Below are positions 7,359 to 59,599 of a DNA stretch of 64,000 nt, in pieces. Location: positions 1 to 64,000 of the forward strand of contig NZ_JAPDDR010000018.1 in the NCBI RefSeq assembly GCF_025950095.1. Direction: 5' to 3'. A model generated the notes under the pieces. It saw only the letters and a list, made by a program, of their open reading frames with translations. It ran no database searches and was not told the origin of the DNA. The position numbers were made by a program, and so were the translations under genes. This stretch comes from Luteolibacter rhizosphaerae. Lineage in GTDB: Bacteria; Verrucomicrobiota; Verrucomicrobiia; Verrucomicrobiales; Akkermansiaceae. How positions within the stretch are numbered: the first letter of the stretch is position 1; each line of letters starts with the position of its first letter.

Positions 7359-7795
7359 TGGCTTGAGCCGTCCGCTTCCTGCGGTAGGCGGATGCGGGCG
7401 GGCACGTCCTTAATCGGGATGCCGGCCCGGGTCAACGCGTCCCATACACCGAGCAATTTCTCCAGCGGGAGTTCCTTGTCGGCCTCCAGCTCCAGCTTGC
7501 GGCCGGGGTTTTCCTTCACGTAGGCCTTCAGGTAAGCATCCAGCAGCGCCAGATCCGGGACCGGCACGGCGTCGAGTGAGACCGAGCCAAGCTTGTCCAC
7601 GGAGAGGATCGAACTCGACTCCACGACGGTGGAGGAAGGGACGTCCTTCACCGTGGGCAGCGCGATGCGGAGGACCGAGCGGGCCTTCTTCGGCACGGTG
7701 GTGACGATGAAGAAGATCAACACCACGAAGAGGATGTCGATCATCGGCATGATCATGATCCCGCGTGATCGGCGGGCGGGGCGTTCGAATTTCAT
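7355..7795 (-). CDS. ExbD/TolR-family biopolymer transport protein
   Basis: The 146-residue product has one N-terminal membrane helix, MPMIDILFVVLIFFIVTTV, with the conserved aspartate that takes part in proton-driven force generation. A periplasmic domain follows. Such proteins work with an ExbB/TolQ partner to energise TonB or TolA. The start at 7795 is chosen because MKFERPARRSRG followed by the helix matches the family, and it overlaps the exbB-like stop (7792) in an ATGA. It ends in an ATGA overlap with def. The operon order is tonB-like, exbB-like, exbD-like, def. Confidence 0.9.
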   Translation of the reverse strand: MKFERPARRSRGIMIMPMIDILFVVLIFFIVTTVPKKARSVLRIALPTVKDVPSSTVVESSSILSVDKLGSVSLDAVPVPDLALLDAYLKAYVKENPGRKLELEADKELPLEKLLGVWDALTRAGIPIKDVPARIRLPQEADGSSQ

Positions 7796-8520
7796 GGCCT
7801 TTCCGGGACGCGGGGCATGGTGGCAGGAGCAGCGGCGGATCCAGCCATGACGGCGTCCCGGTTCGTGCCCGACGGAGTGACCGGCTCCGCGCCCTCGCAA
7901 ACGCGGGCAACCCTCGCGAGCAGGGATTCGAGCCGCGAGATAAGAACTTCGATGCGGCGGGAGAACCAGCCGTGTGCCACCACCGCCGGCACTGCCACCG
8001 CCAGACCCACGATCGTGTTGTCCAAGGCCCGGCCGATACCCTTGGCGAGCAGGTTCTGGTCGGGCGAATCACCGAGGCCGTTGAAGATCACCACCAGACC
8101 GCTGGCCGTTCCCAGCAGGCCGAAGAGCGGTGCCACCGTGATGATCGTATCGAGGATGATCATGCCGGAGTTGAGCTGCACGATCTCGTCCCGCGCCGAG
8201 GCTTGCACGGCATCGGTGATCTCCGCGCGGGGCTTGCCGCGATGCCGTAGGGCCACTTGGCACAGACGTGCCAGAGTGCTGCTGCCGCTGTCGGAGCTGC
8301 TGGCGAGTCCGCTGACTTCTCCTCTGGCCTCGGCGCGGTGCACTTCCGCCTCCAGTTCGGCCGGGATCACCACCTTGCGGGAGAGCGAGAGGATTTTGAA
8401 GACGATGGCTGTGAGCGCGACGAAGGAAGTCAGCGCCAGCGCATACATGAAGATGCCGCCTTGGTTGAAGAAGTCGCCGATGGCTTTGAAATCGAGCGCG
8501 GAAAGCAGGGAAGCGGGCAT
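7792..8520 (-). CDS. ExbB/TolQ/MotA-family proton channel protein
   Basis: 242 residues with three membrane helices: one near the N-terminus (FMYALALTSFVALTAIVFKI) and two in the second half. The second of these includes MIILDTIITVAPLFGLLGTA and the third NTIVGLAVAVPAVVAHGWFS, the MotA/TolQ/ExbB domain. The APLFGLLGTASG and DNTIVGLAVAVPA patterns are the best-conserved parts of the family. It forms the inner-membrane motor with the ExbD-like protein encoded downstream and overlapping by four bases. The TonB-like gene ends nine bases upstream. Confidence 0.92.
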   Translation of the reverse strand: MPASLLSALDFKAIGDFFNQGGIFMYALALTSFVALTAIVFKILSLSRKVVIPAELEAEVHRAEARGEVSGLASSSDSGSSTLARLCQVALRHRGKPRAEITDAVQASARDEIVQLNSGMIILDTIITVAPLFGLLGTASGLVVIFNGLGDSPDQNLLAKGIGRALDNTIVGLAVAVPAVVAHGWFSRRIEVLISRLESLLARVARVCEGAEPVTPSGTNRDAVMAGSAAAPATMPRVPERP

Positions 8521-48552: not shown

Positions 48553-48608
48553 AGGTCACGCCTGTGGACGAGGTATTGACGAACTCACCCGGAAAGAGCG
48601 GTTGGGTT

Positions 48609-48747
48609 CCAATACAACTCCCGCCGGGGGGACCTCCGTGGAGATCACACGCCCGGCGGGTGGTTGTATTGGATAGCGGGGTTTCTCAGGCCCCTATTGG
48701 TGTTCTCCCCCCAGAGAACAGCATTCTAATGGCATCCGCCGTGCCAA
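48609..48747. repeat. Structured repeat element, copy 1
   Basis: Three hairpins occur in a row. First, CCAATACAAC and CCCGCCGGG (48609-48628) pair with CCCGGCGGG and GTTGTATTGG (48652-48672), with a one-against-two-base bulge. Second, GTTCTC, CCCCCA loop, GAGAAC at 48702-48719. Third, GGCA and TGCC at 48731-48745. The second and third hairpins are nearly identical in copy 2 at 49572, while the outer stem differs in sequence but still pairs. The coding strand, if any, is not known. Confidence 0.7.
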
Positions 48748-48907
48748 ACGGCGAAGAGCCGGTGTAACTTACCTAGATCCAATTGATTTAATATTTTGTT
48801 GCATTATGCAACTAGCGGAAGTTTATAGTAAAGCCTGCAAAAGTTTCAGCGATTCCTGAAATTCATTCAGCGCATTGGTGCAAGAGGGTTTCGATCCATG
48901 GTCTCCA

Positions 48908-48923
48908 CCGCCAGTGCTGGCGG
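48908..48923 (-). other. Near-perfect palindrome just beyond the small membrane-protein ORF
   Basis: CCGCCAG and CTGGCGG face each other across two bases, and the flanks extend the pairing with one mismatch. It lies about eight bases after the stop of the minus-strand ORF at 48930 and lacks a T-run, so it is only a possible transcription or transcript end. A second short palindrome, GTTGCATTATGCAAC, lies at 48798-48812 in AT-rich DNA and could be an operator. Confidence 0.3.
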
Positions 48924-48929
48924 AGGGGC

Positions 48930-49571
48930 CTACAGGATCGCCGTGACGACACTGTGAGCCAGCAGGTGAAAGCCCAGCAGTAGAAGGCAAACAAGAAGCA
49001 GCTTCTTCATTTGCAGTCGCGTATGGGACGGGCTGCTGGACTTTGCGCTGCCATACATCAGAGCCAGCACTAGGATCTGAATTCCGCTGTAACCCGCCAG
49101 TACCGGTAGAACCTCTTGACTGCCAGTGTGGCGGCTGAGGATCCGGCCGGCGAGGAATCCCGTTGCGAGCATTACCCCCGAAGAAATAGTGATCTCAGGT
49201 AGATAGATCCGAAACATGTCGATCACCGAATTCACCGACCAAGGATGCCGATGCGTGGCATACAGCTCAGGCTGCAGGGGCACGAAGCGAGGTAGGGGCT
49301 TGCGGCTGGGAGAGGATTCCGGGCGATGATCGAAGTCCTCCGCTGAATCGCCCCAATCACAAGCAAGCGGAACGGCATCCTGGCCGGCTTGCAGCGGCAT
49401 CGGGCTTAGATCCCGGGTGCCTTGGCGGGCTCTGCGGACCGGGGCTTGTTCCACCGGGAGCAGGCGTGACGAATCGGCCACGGCTTGGATCGGCAGCGGG
49501 AAGGAGGGCAGAACAGGGAGGCTTCGCATCGGGCAGGGAGGTGGCTTGGCCCTGCGGGAAGAAACTCTCAT
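48930..49571 (-). CDS. Small membrane protein of unknown function, start uncertain
   Basis: The open frame gives 213 residues. The C-terminal 110 look genuinely coding: LPRFVPLQPELYATHRHPWS, then two or three membrane helices (ISSGVMLATGFLAGRIL, AGYSGIQILVLALMYGS and KLLLVCLLLLGFHLLAHSVV). The first 60-90 residues are proline-rich and could be non-coding, since they run towards structured repeat copy 2. An ATG at 49217 (MFRIYLPEI) gives a 95-residue form. It is flanked on both sides by the structured repeat in the same orientation. I know of no family. Confidence 0.5.
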   Translation of the reverse strand: MRVSSRRAKPPPCPMRSLPVLPSFPLPIQAVADSSRLLPVEQAPVRRARQGTRDLSPMPLQAGQDAVPLACDWGDSAEDFDHRPESSPSRKPLPRFVPLQPELYATHRHPWSVNSVIDMFRIYLPEITISSGVMLATGFLAGRILSRHTGSQEVLPVLAGYSGIQILVLALMYGSAKSSSPSHTRLQMKKLLLVCLLLLGFHLLAHSVVTAIL

Positions 49572-49713
49572 CCAACCACGCCACTCCGCCGGGGGCGATC
49601 TCCCTCACGGGGAATTCACCTGCCCGGCGGATTGGTTGAAAGTGGATGGCGGAGCGTTGTGGCTCCTGTTCTCCCCCCAGAGAACGGAAGTCACTCGGCA
49701 TCCGCCATGCCAA
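49572..49713. repeat. Structured repeat element, copy 2
   Basis: The second copy has CAACCA (49573-49578) and CCGCCGGG (49586-49593) pairing with CCCGGCGG (49623-49630) and TGGTTG (49633-49638). GTTCTC, CCCCCA loop, GAGAAC follows at 49668-49685, and GGCA/TGCC at 49697-49711. Inner sequence TGTTCTCCCCCCAGAGAAC and GGCATCCGCC are shared with copy 1, with similar spacing throughout. The outer stem is kept by different base pairs, which argues for selection on structure. Confidence 0.7.
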
Positions 49714-50135
49714 CTATACCGACACTACGCCAATTACTTATGTTCAAGGAAATGTTGCCAGGCTGCCGGCTTGTCGGACAGGTCGGGGCGCTTTTGACCA
49801 TGCAAAATATTCAGGAAATGCTGAATATCATTCAGGCTTCACTTTTCCTTGGGGTGGAGGTGGTCCAATTCTTCACGCAGTCTTCATCACCGGCTCACTG
49901 CATCCCCTGAAACCCACCCCGGCCGCCGGGCGGATCTACCTATGATTCCCCGGCCGCCCCGCACTCTCCCGCTGCAAAGCGCGGAGGCCGCCATTTTTCG
50001 TGCCCGTATCATCTCATCCAACTTGGCATCATGACGAATCGAGAACTCCTTCAAGCGTCCCTCCTGTCCCGAAGTCTTTCACCCACCGTGAAAGATGCTG
50101 ACTCGCCGGCCTTGCATCCGGCCTCATCCCATGTC
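49714..50135. other. Gene-poor stretch before the large secreted repeat protein
   Basis: No convincing gene. An imperfect hairpin (AATATTCAG, GAAATG loop, CTGAATAT) lies near 49807-49829, and GC-rich inverted stretches lie near 49918-49970. The region probably contains the promoter of the 50136 gene. An in-frame ATG at 50031 exists, but the coding sense is weak there. Confidence 0.4.
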
Positions 50136-52838
50136 ATGGCCCGCCGCATGAAACGGGCAGCAAAAGCGATTTTTCTCGCGGCGGTGGCAATCTTGCATGC
50201 CGGAGCTCCGGTGGCGGAGGCTGCGATCCAACACGTTCAACTTCCGAACGCCAGCGGCAACTCGAACAACTGGTTCTTCTTTCCCGATCAGAACGGACAG
50301 CCGCGGGTGGTGACGAAGGGTAACCAGAACAACTCGCTGGTTCCCCTGCAGGTGCTGGAAGCCACTCCTCCCACCTGGACCCTGAGTTCTTCGGAAACGG
50401 TGGCTGCCAGCAGTCTCGGGACTTTCGTCCCCACCGGCACCGGTACGGGCAAACTGGTGGCAGCTCATATCGATGGCACGCGTAGCATCAACGTGGTCGA
50501 TTTCGTGGCAGGGGAACCGGTTGGACTCGAAACAGCCGTCAGCAACATTTCGACAAATCTTCATTTCGGGAACCTGAGCGCCGCGGTCGACAGCGCCGGC
50601 TTCTTGCACATTGTCTACACCTTGGGAGCCGGTCCCGGCGCTACCTCTTGCACGTTGGTCTATGTGCGGCGGAACGTTTCGACCGGGGACTGGGCGAAGC
50701 ATGAGGTGAATATTCCCGCCCGCGTGCTCGGCACTTCCGTCTTGGCGCCCACCACTTCCAGCGCGGTCCTCTATTTCTCCACCTCGGCGCTTCATCGCTG
50801 CACGCTGGATTCCTTCGGAAACGGCCAGCCTTTGATGACCAATTTCTCCATCCTCCATGTGCCCGCCCAAGGGATCGTGTCCGGAGCGATCAAGGCCACG
50901 CGTGTTTCGGGAGAAGATCGCATCCTTTACTTCTACTCCACCGGATCCACGACCTGGCAGTTCGCGCGGATGGAGTTTACAAGCTCCTCAAACTTCGCGC
51001 CGGTCGACATCCAGGATGTGGCCGCGGTGAGCGGCAGTGTCGCGCTCCCGATCAGCATCCACGTCTCCAACGGTGCAAACGGGAAAGAGCATATCGCGTG
51101 GTATGACCTGCGCTCCCGGCGCATCCACTACCTCGCCCCGGGCAGCGGCTCGGATGGCATTCCCTACTCCGCTTCGCAGCCTGTGACCTTGCAGAACCAG
51201 CCGGCGGGTGTTCCTGATTCGGACCTCCAGGGGCTTCACATCCGGACCTCGGACGGCGTTCCCTTCTTCCTCTATCGCCGCACGACCACCGCCGGCTATG
51301 TGGCTTTCGAAGGAGAGAACATCCCGGCTCCGGAGATTGCCTTGGTCAGCCCCTCGAATACGAACATCAACGACAATGGCTCCCATGGCTTCGGGAGCAT
51401 CGTCACCGGCCAGGAAACAAGCCTGACATTCACGATCAAGAATATCGGAGAGACGACCCTCAGCGGCTTGGTGCCGACGATCGTTGCGAGCGGTTCTTCC
51501 GGTGACTTCAGCATCACGGACATGCCGGACACCTCGATCGCGCCGGGCGGCTCCTCCACCTTCACGGTGCGATTCGCTCCCAGCGCGAACGGCAAGCGCA
51601 CGGTGAAGATCCAGATCCCGAACAACGATCTCGACGAGAATCCTTTCGACCTGAATCTCACTGGCACCGGCGTCCCGCCGCAGATTCCCGAGATCAGCCT
51701 TTCGCAAGGCAAGCTGGTCCTGACCGACGGGGTTTCGGAGGCGGATTTCGGAAGCGTGCTGCGCGGGTCCAACAAGACGGTGGTCTTCACCATCAGCAAT
51801 GTTGGCCTGGCCAGCCTGACCGGCGTGACCGCTACCATCGACGGTGCAAATCCGGGCGACTTCACGATCACGAAGGTCCCGCTTACCACTGTCGCCGGCC
51901 GGAAGAAGACGACCGTGAGTGTCGCCTTCACCCCTGCCGCTTTGGGCAATCGTACCGCTTTCCTCCGCATCGCCAGCAACGACGCCGATGAGAATCCCTT
52001 CGATCTCGTCATCAAGGGGGTGGGCACCGGCCCGGAGGTGGGCGTCGAGCAGCCTGCCGGGACCGACCTGACGGACAATGCTTCCCAGCGTGATTTCGGA
52101 TCGGCGGATATCAACGCTACCGTTCCGCTCACCTTCACCGTCCGCAACACGGGCAACATCGATCTGAAGTCCATCGGCGTGAAGTTCATCGGCGGCTTCC
52201 CGAAGGACTTCCTTCTCACCGCCAAGCCGCCGAAGGTTCTGGCTCCCGGTGCCTCGGCTACCTTCACCGTCACCTTCAAGCCGAAGGCGGCAGGTCTCCG
52301 GACCACCACCCTGCGCCTGACGAGCACGGATGCGGATGAGAAGTTCTTCGAGGTCGCGCTACAAGGCACCGGGAATGCCGCGGCCGCGGCATTGGCTCTT
52401 TCCCGCACCTTGCCGGAAGGCAGCGATCATCCCATTCTCGCCGCGATCACCGCAGCCGGCCTGAAGGGTGATGCTGCTGCAGTTGATGCCATCGCCCACC
52501 AGGACGGCGTGGAGAATCTCCTCAAGTACGCGTTCAACCTCGACCTTTCGGGTCCCGATTGCCGCACCTTGATTGCAGGCACCGGCACTGCGGGCTTGCC
52601 GGTCGTGACCGCCACCGCCGCGGATGGCAGCACCGTGCTCCGCTTCGAGTACATCCGCCGCACGGGTGCAGGCTTGGTCTATCAACCCAAGTTCAGCGCC
52701 GACCTCAGCACTTGGTCGGCTCCCGGGACTTCGCCGACCGTCGTCGCAATTGATGCGGGTTGGGAGCGCGTGACCTACGATCTCCCCGCCTCCGGTCCCC
52801 GCTTCGCGGTTGTCGAAGTGGGCTTCGCCACCGAGTGA
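50136..52838 (+). CDS. Large secreted protein with three choice-of-anchor D-type repeats
   Basis: 900 residues from the ATG at 50136, with a basic start and signal peptide (MARRMKRAAKAIFLAAVAIL) cleaved near AEA. The first 390 residues resemble a beta-propeller or sandwich (AAVDSAGFLHIVYTLGAGPG, GANGKEHIAWYDLRSRRIHY). Three units of about 115 residues follow, each with a DNGS.GFGSI or ASQRDFGSA opening, TFTIKNIGETTLSGL-type and NDLDENPFDLNLTGTG-type parts, and a STFTVRFAP-type core. The C-terminal module (DGVENLLKYAFNLDLSGPDC) also appears in the dehydrogenase-like gene. It is probably at the cell surface and ends in a strong terminator. Confidence 0.8.
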   Translation: MARRMKRAAKAIFLAAVAILHAGAPVAEAAIQHVQLPNASGNSNNWFFFPDQNGQPRVVTKGNQNNSLVPLQVLEATPPTWTLSSSETVAASSLGTFVPTGTGTGKLVAAHIDGTRSINVVDFVAGEPVGLETAVSNISTNLHFGNLSAAVDSAGFLHIVYTLGAGPGATSCTLVYVRRNVSTGDWAKHEVNIPARVLGTSVLAPTTSSAVLYFSTSALHRCTLDSFGNGQPLMTNFSILHVPAQGIVSGAIKATRVSGEDRILYFYSTGSTTWQFARMEFTSSSNFAPVDIQDVAAVSGSVALPISIHVSNGANGKEHIAWYDLRSRRIHYLAPGSGSDGIPYSASQPVTLQNQPAGVPDSDLQGLHIRTSDGVPFFLYRRTTTAGYVAFEGENIPAPEIALVSPSNTNINDNGSHGFGSIVTGQETSLTFTIKNIGETTLSGLVPTIVASGSSGDFSITDMPDTSIAPGGSSTFTVRFAPSANGKRTVKIQIPNNDLDENPFDLNLTGTGVPPQIPEISLSQGKLVLTDGVSEADFGSVLRGSNKTVVFTISNVGLASLTGVTATIDGANPGDFTITKVPLTTVAGRKKTTVSVAFTPAALGNRTAFLRIASNDADENPFDLVIKGVGTGPEVGVEQPAGTDLTDNASQRDFGSADINATVPLTFTVRNTGNIDLKSIGVKFIGGFPKDFLLTAKPPKVLAPGASATFTVTFKPKAAGLRTTTLRLTSTDADEKFFEVALQGTGNAAAAALALSRTLPEGSDHPILAAITAAGLKGDAAAVDAIAHQDGVENLLKYAFNLDLSGPDCRTLIAGTGTAGLPVVTATAADGSTVLRFEYIRRTGAGLVYQPKFSADLSTWSAPGTSPTVVAIDAGWERVTYDLPASGPRFAVVEVGFATE

Positions 52839-52859
52839 AGCGCGGCTGTAGATCTCCGG

Positions 52860-52899
52860 TGCCCGGTGTCGTCGGCTTCCAACGACACCGGGCATTTTT
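52860..52899 (+). terminator. Strong terminator after the large secreted repeat protein
   Basis: TGCCCGGTGTCGT (52860-52872) pairs perfectly with ACGACACCGGGCA (52882-52894) around a nine-base loop, followed by TTTTT. It lies 22 bases after the stop codon. Confidence 0.9.
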
Positions 52900-53035
52900 G
52901 CGTTCATGTCCGATAATTCCCCGCGCGGGGCTGGTGCCACGAGTGACCTCGCTGACGAATGATCGTGACTCTGCATGCAAAACGTAATGTCCTCCGGCCA
53001 CCTCCCAGGGCAAAAGGACACGTTCCTTAGGCGCG

Positions 53036-56000
53036 ATGAATCTTACAATGTCGGGGGATCACAAGGAGCAGAAACAGGGAAGGTGGGTAGAGGCTTTCTG
53101 GGCGGGGCAGGCGGAGGCGCTCGAACTCATTCTCAGTGGTCTTCCCCTTTCCCGGGTGCTCGAGCGGATCGCCTGCCGCATTGAGGAAGCATCCGAAGAT
53201 GGTGCCCTCTGCTCGGTCTTCCTCGCGAACCCGGAAGGAACCTTGCTGCGGCTCGCCGCTGCGCCTTCCCTGCCTGGCGACTTCCATGATGCCGCTGCTG
53301 AAATCCCGGTGGCAGAAGGCGTGGGCTCCTGTGGAACCGCGGCCGCTCTCAAGCGCTTGGTGGCCATCGACGACATCGTCAGCCATCCCGCCTGGGCCTC
53401 GGCGCGTGACTTCGTTCTCCTCCATGGTCTGAGGGCCTGTTGGTCGGTGCCGGTATTCGGCAGGGATGGCACGCTGCTCGGCACCATGGGGATCTACTAC
53501 CGCGAGCATCGCAAGCCGGACGCGGACGAGCGGGTGCGGGTGGAGTCCGCTGCCAAGCTGGTAGCCTTGGCCATCGAGCGTGGCAGGGTGGCCGAGAAGG
53601 CGCGCGCTGACGAAACACTCCTCCGTATCGCCGGTCAGAATGCCCGCTTGGGAGGCTGGACAGTCGATCTCCCGCAGGGGCCGATCAATTGGTCCGCCGA
53701 GGTTTGCGCCATCCATGAGGTTCCCGCCGGTTATCGGCCGGGCTGGCGGGAGGCCTTCGACTACTACGCGCCGGATTCCCGGCCCGTGGTCTACGAGGCC
53801 TTCATGCGCTGTGCCGAGCAGGGCACCCCTTTCGATCTGGAGCTTCCCTTGATTACTGCCCGGGAGCGGCGGGTGTGGGTCCGTGCGATCGGGGAGGCAG
53901 TGCGGGACGGGGACGACCGGATCATCCGTATTCAAGGAGCTTTCCAAGACCTTACCGACAAGCGTGAAGCGGAAGAGAAGAGCCGCCGTCTCATGGAGCG
54001 TCTCACGGCCACCTTGGAAGCGGTGACGGAGGGTTTCTGCCTTCTGACCCGCGACTGGCGCTACAGCTACCTCAATCGCGAGGCCGAACACCTGCTACAA
54101 CGCTCGCGCGATCAGCTGCTTGGCCGCGTGCTGTGGGAGGAGTTTCCGGAAGCCGTCGGAAGCACCGTCGAGCGTGAACTGGTGCGAGCGGTCAAACAGG
54201 GCGTGGTGGTAGAGTTTGAGAATTACTACCCTCCCTTGGGCGCGTGGTTCGAGATCCGCGGGCTGCCTACCGAAGACGGTCTGGCCATCTACTTCCGGGA
54301 TGTCACCGCCCTGCGCAAGTCGCGCCAGCAGGTGAAGCTCCTCGCCGAGTGTGTCTCGCGCATCACCGATATCGTCATCATCACGGAGGCGGATCCCTTG
54401 GATGAGCCGGGCCCGCGCATCGTCTTCGTGAATGATGCCTTCACCGCGAGCACGGGCTACACCGTCCGCGAAGCGGTGGGCCGCTCGCCGCGCTTCCTTC
54501 AGGGGCCGAAGACCCAGCGGTCCGAACTCGATCGCATTCGCATCGCCATCGCCAAGGGAGAACCCGTGCGGGCCGAGCTGATCAATTATCGCAAGGACGG
54601 CAGCGAGATCTGGCTCGAGATCGACATCGTTCCCGTGAAGGAGGCCGGTGGTCGGGTCTCTTACCTGGTAGCCGTGCAGCGCGACGTCACCGAGCGCAAG
54701 CGCGCCGAGGAAGAGAGTCGCATGAGCGAGGAGCGCTACGTGCGCCAGCGGAACTCGCTCATCACCCTCACCGGCATCCAGCCATTGGAGATGGCGGATC
54801 CGCAGGCCGCCTTCCGCCGGATTACCGAGGCGCATGCCCGCGCCCTCGGGGTCGCGCGGGTGGGCATCTGGCTCTACGGCAGCGACCGCAGTTCCATCCG
54901 CTGCGCCGACTTGTATGAACTTGGGGAGCATCGGCACAGCTCCGGGCAGGAACTCTCGCAAAGCGGCTGCCGAGCTTACTTCGCGGCAATCGACGAGATG
55001 GACGTGATTGCTGCGGACGAGGCACGTTCCGATTCGCGGACCCGTGATTTCGCGGAGAGCTATCTGATTCCTCTCGGGATCACTTCCATGCTCGATGCCC
55101 CGATCGCCATCGGTGGCAGCATCGTGGGAGTGCTGTGTAGCGAGCACACCGGGCCGCCGCGGCGCTGGACGGGCGATGAAAAGACCTTTGCCGCCTCCGT
55201 GGCGAACTTGGTTTCGCTTGCACTCGAGGGTGGGGAACGCCGTCGTGCGGAGGACGCGGTGCAAGAGATCCGCCGCCGCTTCGAGATCGTGGCGGCTGCG
55301 ACCAACGATGCCGTCTGGGACTGGGATCTGGTCAGCGATGAGATCTGGTGGAGCGATGGCTTCGAGAAGCTGTTCGGCTACCGTGGCGACGAGATCGAAC
55401 CCAGTTCGGATTTCTGGGTGCGCCGGATCCATGATGACGACCGCGAGCGCGTGATGCGGGACGTCCGGGCGACCATTGCCGGGCCCGAGGATCACTGGAA
55501 CAAGGAATACCGTTTCCGTCGTGCCGATGGTTCTTATGCATATGTGTTAGATCGCGGCTTCGTCATTCGGGACGAGCGCGGCCGGGGAGTCCGGATGGTT
55601 GGCGGGATGAGCGATCTCAGCGCTCACAAGCAGGCGGAACTCGATCTCGCCCGTCTCAATCGTGCGCTCAAGATGCTCAGCGCCTGCAATGAGGCGGTAA
55701 CCCGGGCGGCAAACGAGGGGGATCTGCTCACGGAGATCTGCCGCATGGCGGTGGAAACCGGCGGCTACCGCATGGCGTGGGTGGGATACGCCCGTCATGA
55801 CGCCGCCCGCAGCATCGAGCCTGTGGCATGGGCAGGCGAGGAGGGGGGGTATCTCAACGAGATTCACCTGACTTGGGATGAAAATTGTCCCACGGGCCGC
55901 GGTCCAGCGGGACAGACGGTGCGCACGGGAGAAGCCGTGGTCTGCCGTGACGTGGAGGCGGAGGATTCCGGCATCGCGTGGCTGGCGCAGATGAAGATGC

Positions 56001-58159
56001 GCGGATATCGCGGTGTCATCTGCTTGCCGTTGCGCGATGGCGAGCGCGTCTTCGGCATGATCGGGCTCTATTCGGACGAGGTGATCGACGTGGGTCAGGA
56101 TGAGGTGAAGCTGTTCCAGGAACTGGCGGATGACCTTGCCTTCGGGATCGGCACCTTGCGCGGACGGGAGGAGCGGCGGCGCGCGGAAGACGTCGTTTTG
56201 AAAGTTGCGCAGGCCGTTTCCACGGGCACCGGGTCGGAGTTCTTCGACCTGCTCACCCTGAACATGGTTGAGGCCTTGGGCGGGCATGGCGGCTTGATCG
56301 GCCGCCTCGATCCGGACGATCTTTCCATCACCACGCTCTCCTGGGTGCTCGGCGGCAGTGTCCAAGAAGGTGTGAGCTACAGCTTGCGGGGTACTCCCTG
56401 TGAGAATGTCAGCGAGGGGAAGGTGTGCGTCTTTGATCGTGGCGTGCAGGAGCTCTTTGCGGATGATCACCTGCTGGTGGAGTTGGGAGTCGAGGCGTAT
56501 GCCGGCATTCCGCTCCTGAACCGGGACGGGACCGTGGCCGGAATCATGGTAGTCCTTTTCTCGAAGCCGCTTGAGGAGACCTCGCTGGTCCAGTCCACCC
56601 TCCAGATCTTCGCGGCGCGAGCCGCGGCGGAGCTTGACCGGCAGAAGGCGGACGAGCAGATCCGCGCGCAGGCCTCGCTCTTGGATCGCGCGCGCGATGC
56701 CATCTTCGTCCGCGGTCTCGACCAGCGGATCCAGTACTGGAACAAGAGTGCGGAACGCCTTTACGGCTGGACGGCGGCGGAGGCGATCGGCCGTTCCGCG
56801 GAGGAATTGCTCTACCGCGAAACCGGAGCCTACCGGGAAGCTTCCGCCACCGTCTTGAACACCGGCGAATGGACCGGAGAACTCGAGCAAGTGAGCCGTG
56901 ATGGCTCCCGCGTGGTGATCGAGGGCCGCTGGACCCTGATCCGCGATTCCGCGGACAAGCCCACGAGCATCCTCACGATCAATACCGATATCACCGAGCA
57001 CAAGAAGCTCGAGCAACAGTTCCTGCGTGCGCAGCGTTTGGAGAGCATCGGTACCCTTGCGGGTGGAATCGCGCACGATCTGAACAATGTCCTCGCACCG
57101 ATCAGCATGTCCATCGAGCTCCTGAAAAGCGATGTACAGGGTGAGCGCGGCAGGGAGCTTCTCGCCACCTTGGAGGCCAGTGCCAAACGCGGCGCGGAGA
57201 TGGTCAATCAAGTGCTCTCCTTCGCCCGGGGCATGGAAGGGCGTCGCGTTGAATTGCATGTCAGGCGCTTGGTGGAGGATGTGGAGAAGATCGTTCGCGA
57301 TACATTTCCGAAGAACATATCTTTCCGCCGTCATGTTCCGCGGGATCTTCGCATCATCCAGGGCGACCCTACCCAACTCCATCAGGTGCTCCTCAATCTG
57401 TGCGTGAATGCCCGCGACGCGATGCCGGAGGGTGGTGAGATCGCGATCACCGCGGAGAACGTGTATCTGGATGAACGCTTTGCCGCCACCGAGACCTCCG
57501 TGAAGGCGGGGCCGCACGTGCTCCTTCGCGTGGAAGATACGGGGCACGGCATTCCTGCCGCGGTGCTCGACAAGATCTTCGAGCCCTTCTTCACCACCAA
57601 GGCGGCAGGTAAAGGCACCGGTCTCGGCCTTTCCACCTCCTTGGCCATCGTGCGCAGCCACGGCGGATTCATCCGTGCCGCCAGCAACCCGGGGCAGGGG
57701 ACCTGTTTTCTCATCGTCCTGCCGTCCTCCGGGTTCGCGGTGGAAGATGCCGCGGAAGCGGATGAAGCGGAGCTTCCCCGCGGTCGCGGTGAAAGGATCC
57801 TGGTGGTGGACGACGAGCCGTCCATCCGCCGCATCACCCGCCATACCTTGGAGTCCTTCGGCTATCAGGTCACCGATGCCTGTGATGGTGCCGAAGCGCT
57901 CGAGATCTACCGGGCGCAGGGGGGCGATATCTCCGCAGTGATCATGGATATGATGATGCCGGGGATGGACGGGACCTCGACGATCCGCGAGCTGATGAAG
58001 ATGGATCCATCCGTGAAGATATTAGCTGCAAGTGGAATCAGTGAGAAAGGAAGACTGGCAAAGGAAGCCGGTGAATGCGTAAGATGTTTCGTTACCAAAC
58101 CTTGTACTGCAGAAACCCTGCTCAAGGCTCTAAAGACCACTATCCACGGCCATGCTTGA
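53036..58159 (+). CDS. Hybrid sensor histidine kinase with many GAF and PAS domains
   Basis: 1,707 residues and no membrane segment, so cytoplasmic. Approximate domain order is GAF (25-180), PAS (190-310), PAS (320-440), a LOV-like PAS (445-565), GAF (575-730), PAS (740-865), GAF (870-1040), GAF (1050-1200), PAS (1205-1330), kinase core and receiver. The phosphorylated histidine is in AHDLNNVLAPIS at about residue 1347. ATPase motifs are NLCVNARDAMP, DTGHGIPA and GTGLGLST. The receiver has VDDEPSIRR, VIMDMMMPGMDG and TKPCTAETLL. The LOV-like domain has GRSPRFLQGP near residue 482, without the photoactive cysteine. The sigma-54 regulator follows closely. Confidence 0.93.
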   Translation: MNLTMSGDHKEQKQGRWVEAFWAGQAEALELILSGLPLSRVLERIACRIEEASEDGALCSVFLANPEGTLLRLAAAPSLPGDFHDAAAEIPVAEGVGSCGTAAALKRLVAIDDIVSHPAWASARDFVLLHGLRACWSVPVFGRDGTLLGTMGIYYREHRKPDADERVRVESAAKLVALAIERGRVAEKARADETLLRIAGQNARLGGWTVDLPQGPINWSAEVCAIHEVPAGYRPGWREAFDYYAPDSRPVVYEAFMRCAEQGTPFDLELPLITARERRVWVRAIGEAVRDGDDRIIRIQGAFQDLTDKREAEEKSRRLMERLTATLEAVTEGFCLLTRDWRYSYLNREAEHLLQRSRDQLLGRVLWEEFPEAVGSTVERELVRAVKQGVVVEFENYYPPLGAWFEIRGLPTEDGLAIYFRDVTALRKSRQQVKLLAECVSRITDIVIITEADPLDEPGPRIVFVNDAFTASTGYTVREAVGRSPRFLQGPKTQRSELDRIRIAIAKGEPVRAELINYRKDGSEIWLEIDIVPVKEAGGRVSYLVAVQRDVTERKRAEEESRMSEERYVRQRNSLITLTGIQPLEMADPQAAFRRITEAHARALGVARVGIWLYGSDRSSIRCADLYELGEHRHSSGQELSQSGCRAYFAAIDEMDVIAADEARSDSRTRDFAESYLIPLGITSMLDAPIAIGGSIVGVLCSEHTGPPRRWTGDEKTFAASVANLVSLALEGGERRRAEDAVQEIRRRFEIVAAATNDAVWDWDLVSDEIWWSDGFEKLFGYRGDEIEPSSDFWVRRIHDDDRERVMRDVRATIAGPEDHWNKEYRFRRADGSYAYVLDRGFVIRDERGRGVRMVGGMSDLSAHKQAELDLARLNRALKMLSACNEAVTRAANEGDLLTEICRMAVETGGYRMAWVGYARHDAARSIEPVAWAGEEGGYLNEIHLTWDENCPTGRGPAGQTVRTGEAVVCRDVEAEDSGIAWLAQMKMRGYRGVICLPLRDGERVFGMIGLYSDEVIDVGQDEVKLFQELADDLAFGIGTLRGREERRRAEDVVLKVAQAVSTGTGSEFFDLLTLNMVEALGGHGGLIGRLDPDDLSITTLSWVLGGSVQEGVSYSLRGTPCENVSEGKVCVFDRGVQELFADDHLLVELGVEAYAGIPLLNRDGTVAGIMVVLFSKPLEETSLVQSTLQIFAARAAAELDRQKADEQIRAQASLLDRARDAIFVRGLDQRIQYWNKSAERLYGWTAAEAIGRSAEELLYRETGAYREASATVLNTGEWTGELEQVSRDGSRVVIEGRWTLIRDSADKPTSILTINTDITEHKKLEQQFLRAQRLESIGTLAGGIAHDLNNVLAPISMSIELLKSDVQGERGRELLATLEASAKRGAEMVNQVLSFARGMEGRRVELHVRRLVEDVEKIVRDTFPKNISFRRHVPRDLRIIQGDPTQLHQVLLNLCVNARDAMPEGGEIAITAENVYLDERFAATETSVKAGPHVLLRVEDTGHGIPAAVLDKIFEPFFTTKAAGKGTGLGLSTSLAIVRSHGGFIRAASNPGQGTCFLIVLPSSGFAVEDAAEADEAELPRGRGERILVVDDEPSIRRITRHTLESFGYQVTDACDGAEALEIYRAQGGDISAVIMDMMMPGMDGTSTIRELMKMDPSVKILAASGISEKGRLAKEAGECVRCFVTKPCTAETLLKALKTTIHGHA

Positions 58160-58243
58160 AACGGAATCCGTGTGCATTCCTACGCGATCAAGTGAATGTT
58201 CACGCTGGACACCCCTGTCATACTGCCGACCTTCCACTCCCTA

Positions 58244-59599
58244 ATGCCTCGCTACCCGGATGATACCCCGAATCTTCTCATCGTGGATGACGATGAGACG
58301 ATTCAGCGACTGCTCGTCATCGCCGCCAAGGACAATGGCTGGCGGCCGCTCGCCGCGAGTTCGGGGAAAGAGGCTCTCGGGGCGGCGAGCGATGCCACCG
58401 AGGCGGTAGTGCTCGACCATGGTCTTCCAGACATGGACGGGCTCGCGACATTGATTCAGCTGCGCGAGCGTCACCCCGATCTCCCGGTGATCATGTTGAC
58501 CGGGCTGAACGACGCGGAAACCGCGGTGAAGGCCCTTCGTGCGGGGGCCGCCGATTATCTTACCAAGCCTTTCGAACTGAAGCGCCTCTTCGACCTGCTG
58601 CGGGAGCTGAGGCGGGAGAAGAAGGAGGTGGCCGAGGTCCCTGCACCTGCGCCTTCTTCCAAGGTTCCGCGTGGTCCCATGCGCAGCTCCAGCCCGAAGG
58701 TTCGTGAGTTGCTCCGCCGCATGGAGAAGGCCGCGGCACTGGACAGCACGATCCTGCTGACAGGGGAAAGCGGCACCGGGAAGACCTACTTCGCCCGGGA
58801 GATCCATCGCATGAGCCGCCGCAGCGGGGAGGAATTCATCACGGTGAGTTGCCCGGCCCTGCCGCGCGAACTTCTGGAGTCGGAACTCTTCGGACACGAA
58901 CGCGGCGCATTCACCGGAGCCACGGCTTCGCGGGCAGGTCGCTTCGAGGTGGCTTCAAAAGGCACCCTCTTCCTGGACGAGATCGGGGATCTGCCGCCGG
59001 AGCTCCAGCCGAAGCTTCTCAATGTCCTTCAGGACCGGGAGTTCTTCCGCGTGGGTGGGAACAAGCTGCTCAAGACCGATACGCGGGTCATCGCGGCCAC
59101 GAATGTCGATCTGCGTTCCCGCGTCCAGCTTGGCACCTTCCGGGAGGACCTTTACTACCGCCTGAACATCATCGAGCTGAACATTCCTCCGCTGCGCGAA
59201 CGCAAGGAGGACATCCCCGGTCTCGCTGCCGGGATACTCGCGCGCATTGCCGCGCGTCGGAGCTCCCCGGGCTGGAAGTTGTCAAGCGAGGCCCAGAAAT
59301 CCCTCATCGCCTTCGATTGGCCGGGCAATGTCCGCCAGCTTGAGAATGTTCTGGAGCGGGCCACCGCGTTCACCGATGAGCCCACCCTTCACGAGCGGGA
59401 CCTCGCGCCTCTCTTGGAGTCGCATCGCGAAGCGCCGGCCCCGGGCATGGGACGGCCGATGACGCTTCAGGAACTCGAGCGCGACGCCTTCATCCAGACC
59501 TACCACCTCAGCGGTGGTAACAAGGCGAAAACAGCGCGAGCGCTCGGGATCTCCGAGCGCTCGGTTTACAATCTTCTGGAACGTCACGGCCTCAAGTGA
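58244..59599 (+). CDS. Sigma-54-dependent response regulator, NtrC family
   Basis: 451 residues. Receiver: LLIVDDDETIQR, phospho-aspartate in VVLDHGLPDMDG, lysine in DYLTKPFELK. AAA+ domain: Walker A GESGTGKTYFAREIH, the sigma-54-contacting loop GAFTGA in GHERGAFTGATASRAGRFE, Walker B GTLFLDEIGD, and the arginine region YYRLNIIELNIPPLRERKED. A Fis-type helix-turn-helix ends the protein (GNKAKTARALGISERSVYNL). It therefore activates promoters read by sigma-54 RNA polymerase. The start at 58244 (MPRYPDDTP) is likely; 58196 is an in-frame alternative. The large hybrid kinase upstream is its probable partner. Confidence 0.94.
   Translation: MPRYPDDTPNLLIVDDDETIQRLLVIAAKDNGWRPLAASSGKEALGAASDATEAVVLDHGLPDMDGLATLIQLRERHPDLPVIMLTGLNDAETAVKALRAGAADYLTKPFELKRLFDLLRELRREKKEVAEVPAPAPSSKVPRGPMRSSSPKVRELLRRMEKAAALDSTILLTGESGTGKTYFAREIHRMSRRSGEEFITVSCPALPRELLESELFGHERGAFTGATASRAGRFEVASKGTLFLDEIGDLPPELQPKLLNVLQDREFFRVGGNKLLKTDTRVIAATNVDLRSRVQLGTFREDLYYRLNIIELNIPPLRERKEDIPGLAAGILARIAARRSSPGWKLSSEAQKSLIAFDWPGNVRQLENVLERATAFTDEPTLHERDLAPLLESHREAPAPGMGRPMTLQELERDAFIQTYHLSGGNKAKTARALGISERSVYNLLERHGLK

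Follow-up and report, generated by a model that had tools for sequence, protein, structure and literature searches.

Two copies of a structured element in the window (the whole stretch of DNA analysed: 64,000 nt of Luteolibacter rhizosphaerae, contig NZ_JAPDDR010000018.1, positions 1 to 64,000) are very probably a pair of small-RNA genes that would be driven by sigma-54 and activated by a linked NtrC-type regulator. The best reading of the comparisons below is that they represent a new sigma-54-driven small-RNA family in Akkermansiaceae, which would resemble Qrr and GlmY in wiring and not in sequence. We infer that the copies are transcribed, that the linked regulator activates them and that the RNAs act in trans. 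The features are collected in Table 1.

Table 1. Predicted features of the two copies and their surroundings (window positions; H, hairpin; T1 and T2, copy types)
Feature	Position	Strand	Basis or remark
Copy 1 (T1), predicted small RNA	48605..48720	-	R1 match 48601-48749 minus; fold z -4.6; covariation
Copy 1 predicted hairpins	H1 48702-48719 (GTTCTCCCCCCAGAGAAC); H2 48678-48694; long GC-rich H3 48609-48672	-
Copy 1 putative sigma-54 promoter, TGGCACGGCGGATGC	48732..48746	-	13 nt before TTCTC, as in 15/19 T1 copies
Copy 1 putative enhancer, two 17-bp dyads	48834..48871	-	87 bp before TGG; 0 mismatches to tandem pattern
ORF, fast-evolving membrane-like protein	48930..49571	-	28-34% identity to four relatives, same place
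Copy 2 (T2), predicted small RNA	49568..49715	-	R1 match; alternative fold and its covariation
Copy 2 predicted parts	H1 49668-49685 (GTTCTCCCCCCAGAGAAC); GC-rich hairpin core about 49585-49631; alternative long hairpin within 49635-49716	-
Copy 2 sigma-54 promoter-like element, TGGCATGGCGGATGC	49698..49712	-	13 nt before TTCTC
Copy 2 second promoter-like block, TTGAAC-N17-TGTC	49721..49747	-	Same spacing in 10 T2 copies
Copy 2 putative enhancer, two dyads	49799..49836	-	86 bp before TGG; 1 mismatch
Hybrid histidine kinase, PAS and GAF domains and receiver, 1707 aa	53036..58159	+	Domain scan
NtrC-type sigma-54 response regulator, 467 aa, putative activator of both copies	58196..59599	+	78% identity to the G004 orthologue

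Structure and strand of the two copies

The initial annotation had described two structured copies in the same orientation between 48600 and 49715, and it was right about their existence, place and orientation. With up to 3 mismatches allowed, the inner hairpin (H1) gave two matches in the window against 0.10 expected (0/100 shuffles held two), and the plus-strand folds of both copy regions were better than 200/200 shuffles (z -4.2 and -6.3). A GGCA..TGCC palindrome stands at 48731-48745 and 49697-49711, 11 nt beyond the inner hairpin in both copies. The relevant strand is minus, and the GGCA-TGCC pair is better read as a promoter. The minus-strand order is a promoter-like element, 13 nt, H1 (GUUCUCYGGGGGGAGAAC), a covarying H2 and a long GC-rich hairpin. 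An outer stem had been attributed to both copies; the long CCAATACAAC/GTTGTATTGG stem is a feature of copy 1 and of part of its orthologues.

Covariation was counted over 13 copies from 7 genomes, two each in G000 (the window genome), G010, G004, G002, G009 and G001 and one in G014. Changes on both sides were found in 10 pairs versus 5.1 after shuffling (0/500 as high; 1-4 in slid versions), a significance that the shuffle controls overstate because the copies share ancestry. Further pair types were not in excess (22 vs 21.2 shuffled). Compensatory changes are thus present in relatives, and the suggestion of selection for structure in an RNA element is supported both by these 13 copies and by the alternative T2 fold described below. 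G-U cells outnumbered A-C cells on the minus strand (28 vs 15, after the invariant U-G pair of H1 was dropped), which gives modest support for that strand. The most conserved piece, UUCUCYGGGGRGRG, was seen in 26 copies of both types and both genera, and several copies have GNRA-like and UUCG loops and U-runs. Copy 1 has no U-run and its 3' end is uncertain. Sequence comparison shows the structure and its covariation and, as set out below, promoter and enhancer motifs at fixed spacing and linkage to the regulator.

Sigma-54 promoters and enhancer dyads

Read on the minus strand, the GGCA-TGCC palindrome is TGGCAY-N8-GC, the -24/-12 form. The sigma-54 promoter consensus is given as TGGCACG-N4-TTGCW, with conserved GG (-24) and GC (-12), in the available text of PMC2573895. 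TGG[CT]A-N8-GC was present in 19/19 T1 and 6/10 T2 copies, a presence that is partly built in because the R1 and R2 models by which copies were found contain the promoter. In T1 the distance from promoter to TTCTC was 13 nt (15 copies), 12 (2) or 14 (2). Transcription is expected to start about twelve nt after the C of the -12 element, so the RNA would start at H1. The promoter of g13 copies is mostly not palindromic (e.g. TTGGCACGTCGCTAGCA), therefore its direction is plain, and GTTCTCYGGGG lies downstream on the same strand. RpoN (PF04552, over the cut-off) was found in 17/18 genus genomes, the window genome included.

Upstream of the copies are two 17-bp dyads, CCTGMA-N5-TKCAGG, set 21 bp apart in the layout of an NtrC-type enhancer. 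Across the whole window genome copy 1 was the sole site matching the tandem pattern with 0 mismatches, and copy 2 the sole site with 1; three sites had 2 mismatches, and allowing up to 3 gave 18 sites versus 12 for the reversed control. For each copy, 20-220 bp upstream were scanned by script, the best tandem was taken and dinucleotide-shuffled upstream sequences served as controls (n = 200). The best tandem lay 86-87 bp before TGG in 14/16 promoter-bearing g1 copies, a count in which the enhancer is absent from the copy-finding models but the consensus for the dyads was itself derived from these sites. Its score was reached by at most 3/200 shuffles for 13 of those 14 copies and by 14/200 for G010_1. 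The g1 exceptions were G004_3, with no enhancer, and G009_3, with weaker dyads at 109 bp. In g13 the dyads show less regularity and only 1/9 copies (G173a) has them at 86 bp; most of their scores fall within the shuffle range (shuffles out of 200 reaching the score: G173c 54, G072a 61, G225 39, G205 14, G173a 8, G029 7).

Copy types and distribution in relatives

Type T1 (n = 19), laid out as H1, H2 and a 3' hairpin, comprises copy 1 and its orthologues, together with the three unlinked copies of g1 and every g13 copy (nine). A stem followed by at least four T was detected by script in 10/19 T1 copies (one of them weak, G173c; window copy 1 not among them), and two more, in G072, have a stem and T-run by eye. 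Type T2 (n = 10) comprises the second copy of seven pairs and three single copies. Its defining feature is the block TTGAAC-N17-TGTC, which stands 36-38 nt ahead of H1 and has the same inner spacing throughout. This block, which resembles an ECF-type promoter, was found in 0/19 T1 copies. A transcript from it would contain the sigma-54 palindrome, which in copy 2 may also form half of an alternative stem. When the 10 T2 sequences were folded, each minimum-energy structure contained a long hairpin built around the H1 loop, with that of G007 less complete. For this hairpin, double-change cells numbered 16 vs 5.3 shuffled (0/500) and the covariation score was 0.274 vs 0.161 shuffled (0/500; slid versions at most 0.111). 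Pairs with double changes numbered 6 vs 3.3 (7/500; one slid version also 6) and further pair types 21 vs 18.7 (55/500).

A DNA search with copy 2 gave matches in 8/18 genus genomes, the window genome included; the match in G006 from this search was a 35-bp stretch elsewhere and was not used. The covariance model R1 was built from the 13 copies above on the minus strand. The further copies that the initial annotation had looked to relatives for were recovered with R1 in 16/244 family genomes, 10/18 genus genomes and 2/16 genera (g1 and g13), and in 7/384 genomes of the class, all from these two genera. Eight opposite-strand self matches and the weak matches L051 and L062 were left out of the R1 rows (39). 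A pattern scan of genome contigs returned 6 stretches. The records hit were those of Haloferula sp. BvORR071 (L063, with two pattern matches) and Luteolibacter marinus (current NCBI name Neoluteolibacter marinus) of g1, Akkermansiaceae MAGs of g13, and Candidatus Caldatribacterium (L062; R1 16.6 bits), whose stretch was taken as chance. No plasmid relatives were found. Three tandem copies stand 309 bp apart in G173, followed by the kinase and regulator. Unlinked extra T1 copies with putative sigma-54 promoters were seen at L047 (G004), L048 (G009) and L049 (G002); the G002 copy has an enhancer at 87 bp and a U6 terminator, and the G004 copy has no enhancer. As for a known repeat family, Rfam 15 gave no match at gathering score in the window and 10 relatives' loci. 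Permissive Rfam settings gave three microRNA-hairpin matches only (E 0.11-4.4, far below gathering scores), and a known RNA family was rejected.

The ORF between the copies

In five genomes the enclosed ORF has the look of a genuine membrane-protein gene that evolves fast. It had no Pfam or NCBIfam match, and by eye a start at 49529 fits the relatives better. The annotation had likened the arrangement to a cassette between recombination elements. This idea was abandoned: the copies bear promoters and enhancers, and those of G002 and G006 start just 367 bp and 267 bp apart. No ORF relative was found between the copies in these two genomes, therefore the copies do not exist to frame the ORF. Ten proteins were scanned, six from the window and four others, and none was a recombinase.

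Copy 2 could instead be the 5' UTR of the membrane-protein gene, a riboswitch- or thermometer-like cis-acting leader, with copy 1 a relic or 3' element. In the window, G010, G004, G009 and G001 the ORF does follow copy 2 immediately and in the same direction, and T2 has two competing folds, but G002 and G006 keep both copies with no such ORF between them, G173 has its three copies in tandem, and T1 copies stand alone, some with U-runs. A cis-acting leader is improbable on this evidence.

At L027:5193-6074 (minus) and L028:5921-6691 (plus), a membrane-protein frame is open back through the T2 hairpin (CSLGGE at H1), perhaps by chance because this is not so in the window.

The linked kinase and regulator

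The G004 regulator orthologue has receiver and Sigma54_activat domains, and the domain assignment of the window regulator was taken from it. An orthologous kinase-regulator pair adjoins copy 2 in G001, G002, G004, G009 and G010. The window differs from these five relatives: over 50031-59599, a 935-aa gene with HYDIN/ASH-like repeats separates the copies from the kinase-regulator operon, which is oriented away from them.

Regulator orthologues (at least 59% identity) were found in 21/244 family genomes, of which 7 belong to g1 and 14 to g13; G008 and other genera gave matches at about 50%, which were read as a probable further subfamily. R1 copies were present in 13/21 genomes with a regulator orthologue vs 3/223 without (Fisher p 8e-14). 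RNA and regulator lay at most 10 kb apart on one contig in 12/13 genomes holding both, in two genera; in the thirteenth, G213, the copy is beside the kinase at a contig end and the regulator is on another contig. Eight of the 21 regulator genomes had no copy by R1, nor by R2 at E 0.01. Weak R2 matches in five of these eight (E 0.065-0.25) are by eye sigma-54-like promoters that share the strand of the regulator and lie close to it.

These five g13 genomes have the promoter-like sequences at L111:4059-4250; L114:6009-6051 and 7781-7817; L110:10337-10397; L112:8011-8052; and L113:4076-4114. By eye, one of them precedes the start of a receiver-like protein, and that of L111 is followed by a G-run and a terminator-like hairpin, possibly a diverged RNA.

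The genomes with a copy and no regulator orthologue (G007, G011 and G014) each have a single copy that lacks the -24/-12 element and has no tandem dyads at the usual place, so that at sequence level promoter, enhancer and regulator were shown to be jointly absent. This joint absence, taken with the linkage, is the strongest argument for tying regulator, promoter and RNA to one another; against it stands G006_2, which is without promoter and enhancer though the regulator is in the genome.

Control of the small RNA by some sigma-54 activator other than the linked one is quite improbable. Regulator-like candidates are many (46-116 at first look per copy-bearing genome, except where lower), but the linked regulator is the one that adjoins and co-occurs with the copies in two genera and that G007, G011 and G014 lack along with promoter and enhancer. 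It is highly improbable that DNA alone matters, with no active RNA and with the inverted repeats serving as binding sites or as an element of a mobile, recombination or repeat kind: the palindromes and enhancer dyads are DNA sites and the copies are multiple and partly unlinked (L047-L049), but hairpins 2 and 3 stay paired while their sequence changes, hairpin 1 keeps a fixed distance past the promoter, several copies have the RNA-like loops and U-runs noted above, and the G002 and G006 copies have no ORF between them.

Proposed circuit and possible action

As a small-RNA gene pair under the linked regulator, the copies would work as follows. A phosphorelay from the nearby PAS/GAF hybrid kinase would render the NtrC-type regulator active, the activated regulator would bind the dyad pair that lies some 86 bp upstream of each copy, and sigma-54 RNA polymerase would start leftward just before GUUCUCYGGGGGGAGAAC. 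From the second promoter, TTGAAC-N17-TGTC, copy 2 could additionally yield a longer form, folded as a single long hairpin topped by the same loop, so that the basal and the induced form would have one active loop in common.

The most likely action, offered tentatively, is pairing of the G-rich loop with mRNA at C-rich sites. Next likeliest, and more doubtful, is that the loop binds an RNA-binding protein and one RNA is a decoy for the other. Near-complements of H1 (up to 3 mismatches) were found at ten further sites of the window genome (L003-L012) vs 1 in the reversed control. These sites are a lead only; three of them (L009, L011 and L012) lie between co-oriented ORFs of the mechanical ORF list. 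No conserved C-rich partner site was seen in the loci examined.

The near-H1 sites elsewhere in the window genome are by eye without promoter and without H2, and were rejected as further copies. The L011 site follows a gene with a PEP-CTERM-like end (by eye). At L082:4472 (minus), in Luteolibacter marinus, the stretch before the regulator gene has CTCCCCCCGG on the strand of that gene, complementary to the RNA loop, and feedback is possible there. A cis pseudoknot between the G-loop and a C-run of H3 was rejected as a family feature, the C-run being missing by eye from most g13 copies.

Hfq (PF17209) and CsrA (PF02599) were each found in 0/18 genus genomes (control: found in 5/14 and 3/14, respectively); with these partner proteins not found, a CsrA sponge and an Hfq-dependent RNA were rejected. 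A more far-reaching and rather unlikely reading is that the two-component regulon here is essentially the small-RNA pair, because no other site in the genome comes within one mismatch of the tandem enhancer. The two RNAs would then be a competitor/decoy pair like GlmY/GlmZ, of independent origin in Verrucomicrobiota, with one G-rich loop, two folds and two promoters (one sigma-54-induced, one for another sigma factor). Since Hfq and CsrA were not found, it would work through a not-yet-known RNA-binding partner or through protein-free loop pairing.

Comparison with known systems

CsrB/RsmZ-type sponge RNAs are small hairpin RNAs under two-component control with an ANGGA loop motif. The copies resemble them in being predicted hairpin small RNAs with putative two-component control, and differ in that the loop is a G-run and not ANGGA and that the genus genomes gave no CsrA.

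GlmY/GlmZ with QseE-QseF of enterobacteria are alike in having an RNA gene beside two-component genes and two homologous RNAs, and GlmY in having a sigma-54 promoter, several upstream sites and an overlapping second promoter, as described in the available parts of PMC6075780 and PMC8745638. The upstream sites of that system are TGTN12ACA, unlike the dyads here. The copies also differ in having no Rfam match, and in that the second promoter block is found only in copy 2, where it would give a longer, differently folded RNA.

The Qrr RNAs of Vibrionaceae have an NtrC-type regulator (LuxO) fed by a phosphorelay, a sigma-54 promoter and upstream activator sites, all like the arrangement proposed here; as in the window and its relatives, there are several related copies, and qrr1 adjoins the regulator gene (available text of PMC10162802 and PMC8043402). 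The LuxO site given there, TTGCAWWWTGCAA, resembles some of the TGCA dyads described here. Unlike Qrr, the copies have no Rfam match and belong to another phylum, and the G004 regulator orthologue scores 306.8 bits against the NCBI LuxO cut-off of 800 bits. Qrr3 acts with Hfq (PMC8043402, text available), which was not found in the genus here.

No description of sigma-54 small RNAs in Verrucomicrobiota, Luteolibacter or Akkermansia was found in the open-licence literature, in the portions available and including PMC12316311. If the proposed circuit is true, it would open a way into the study of small-RNA control in a group that yielded neither Hfq nor CsrA, with a candidate activator, enhancer, start site and loop already named. 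Detailed knowledge of small RNAs under sigma-54 regulators comes from Gammaproteobacteria (Qrr, GlmY), and a separate Akkermansiaceae family with the same wiring would, if true, suggest that such a circuit arises repeatedly.
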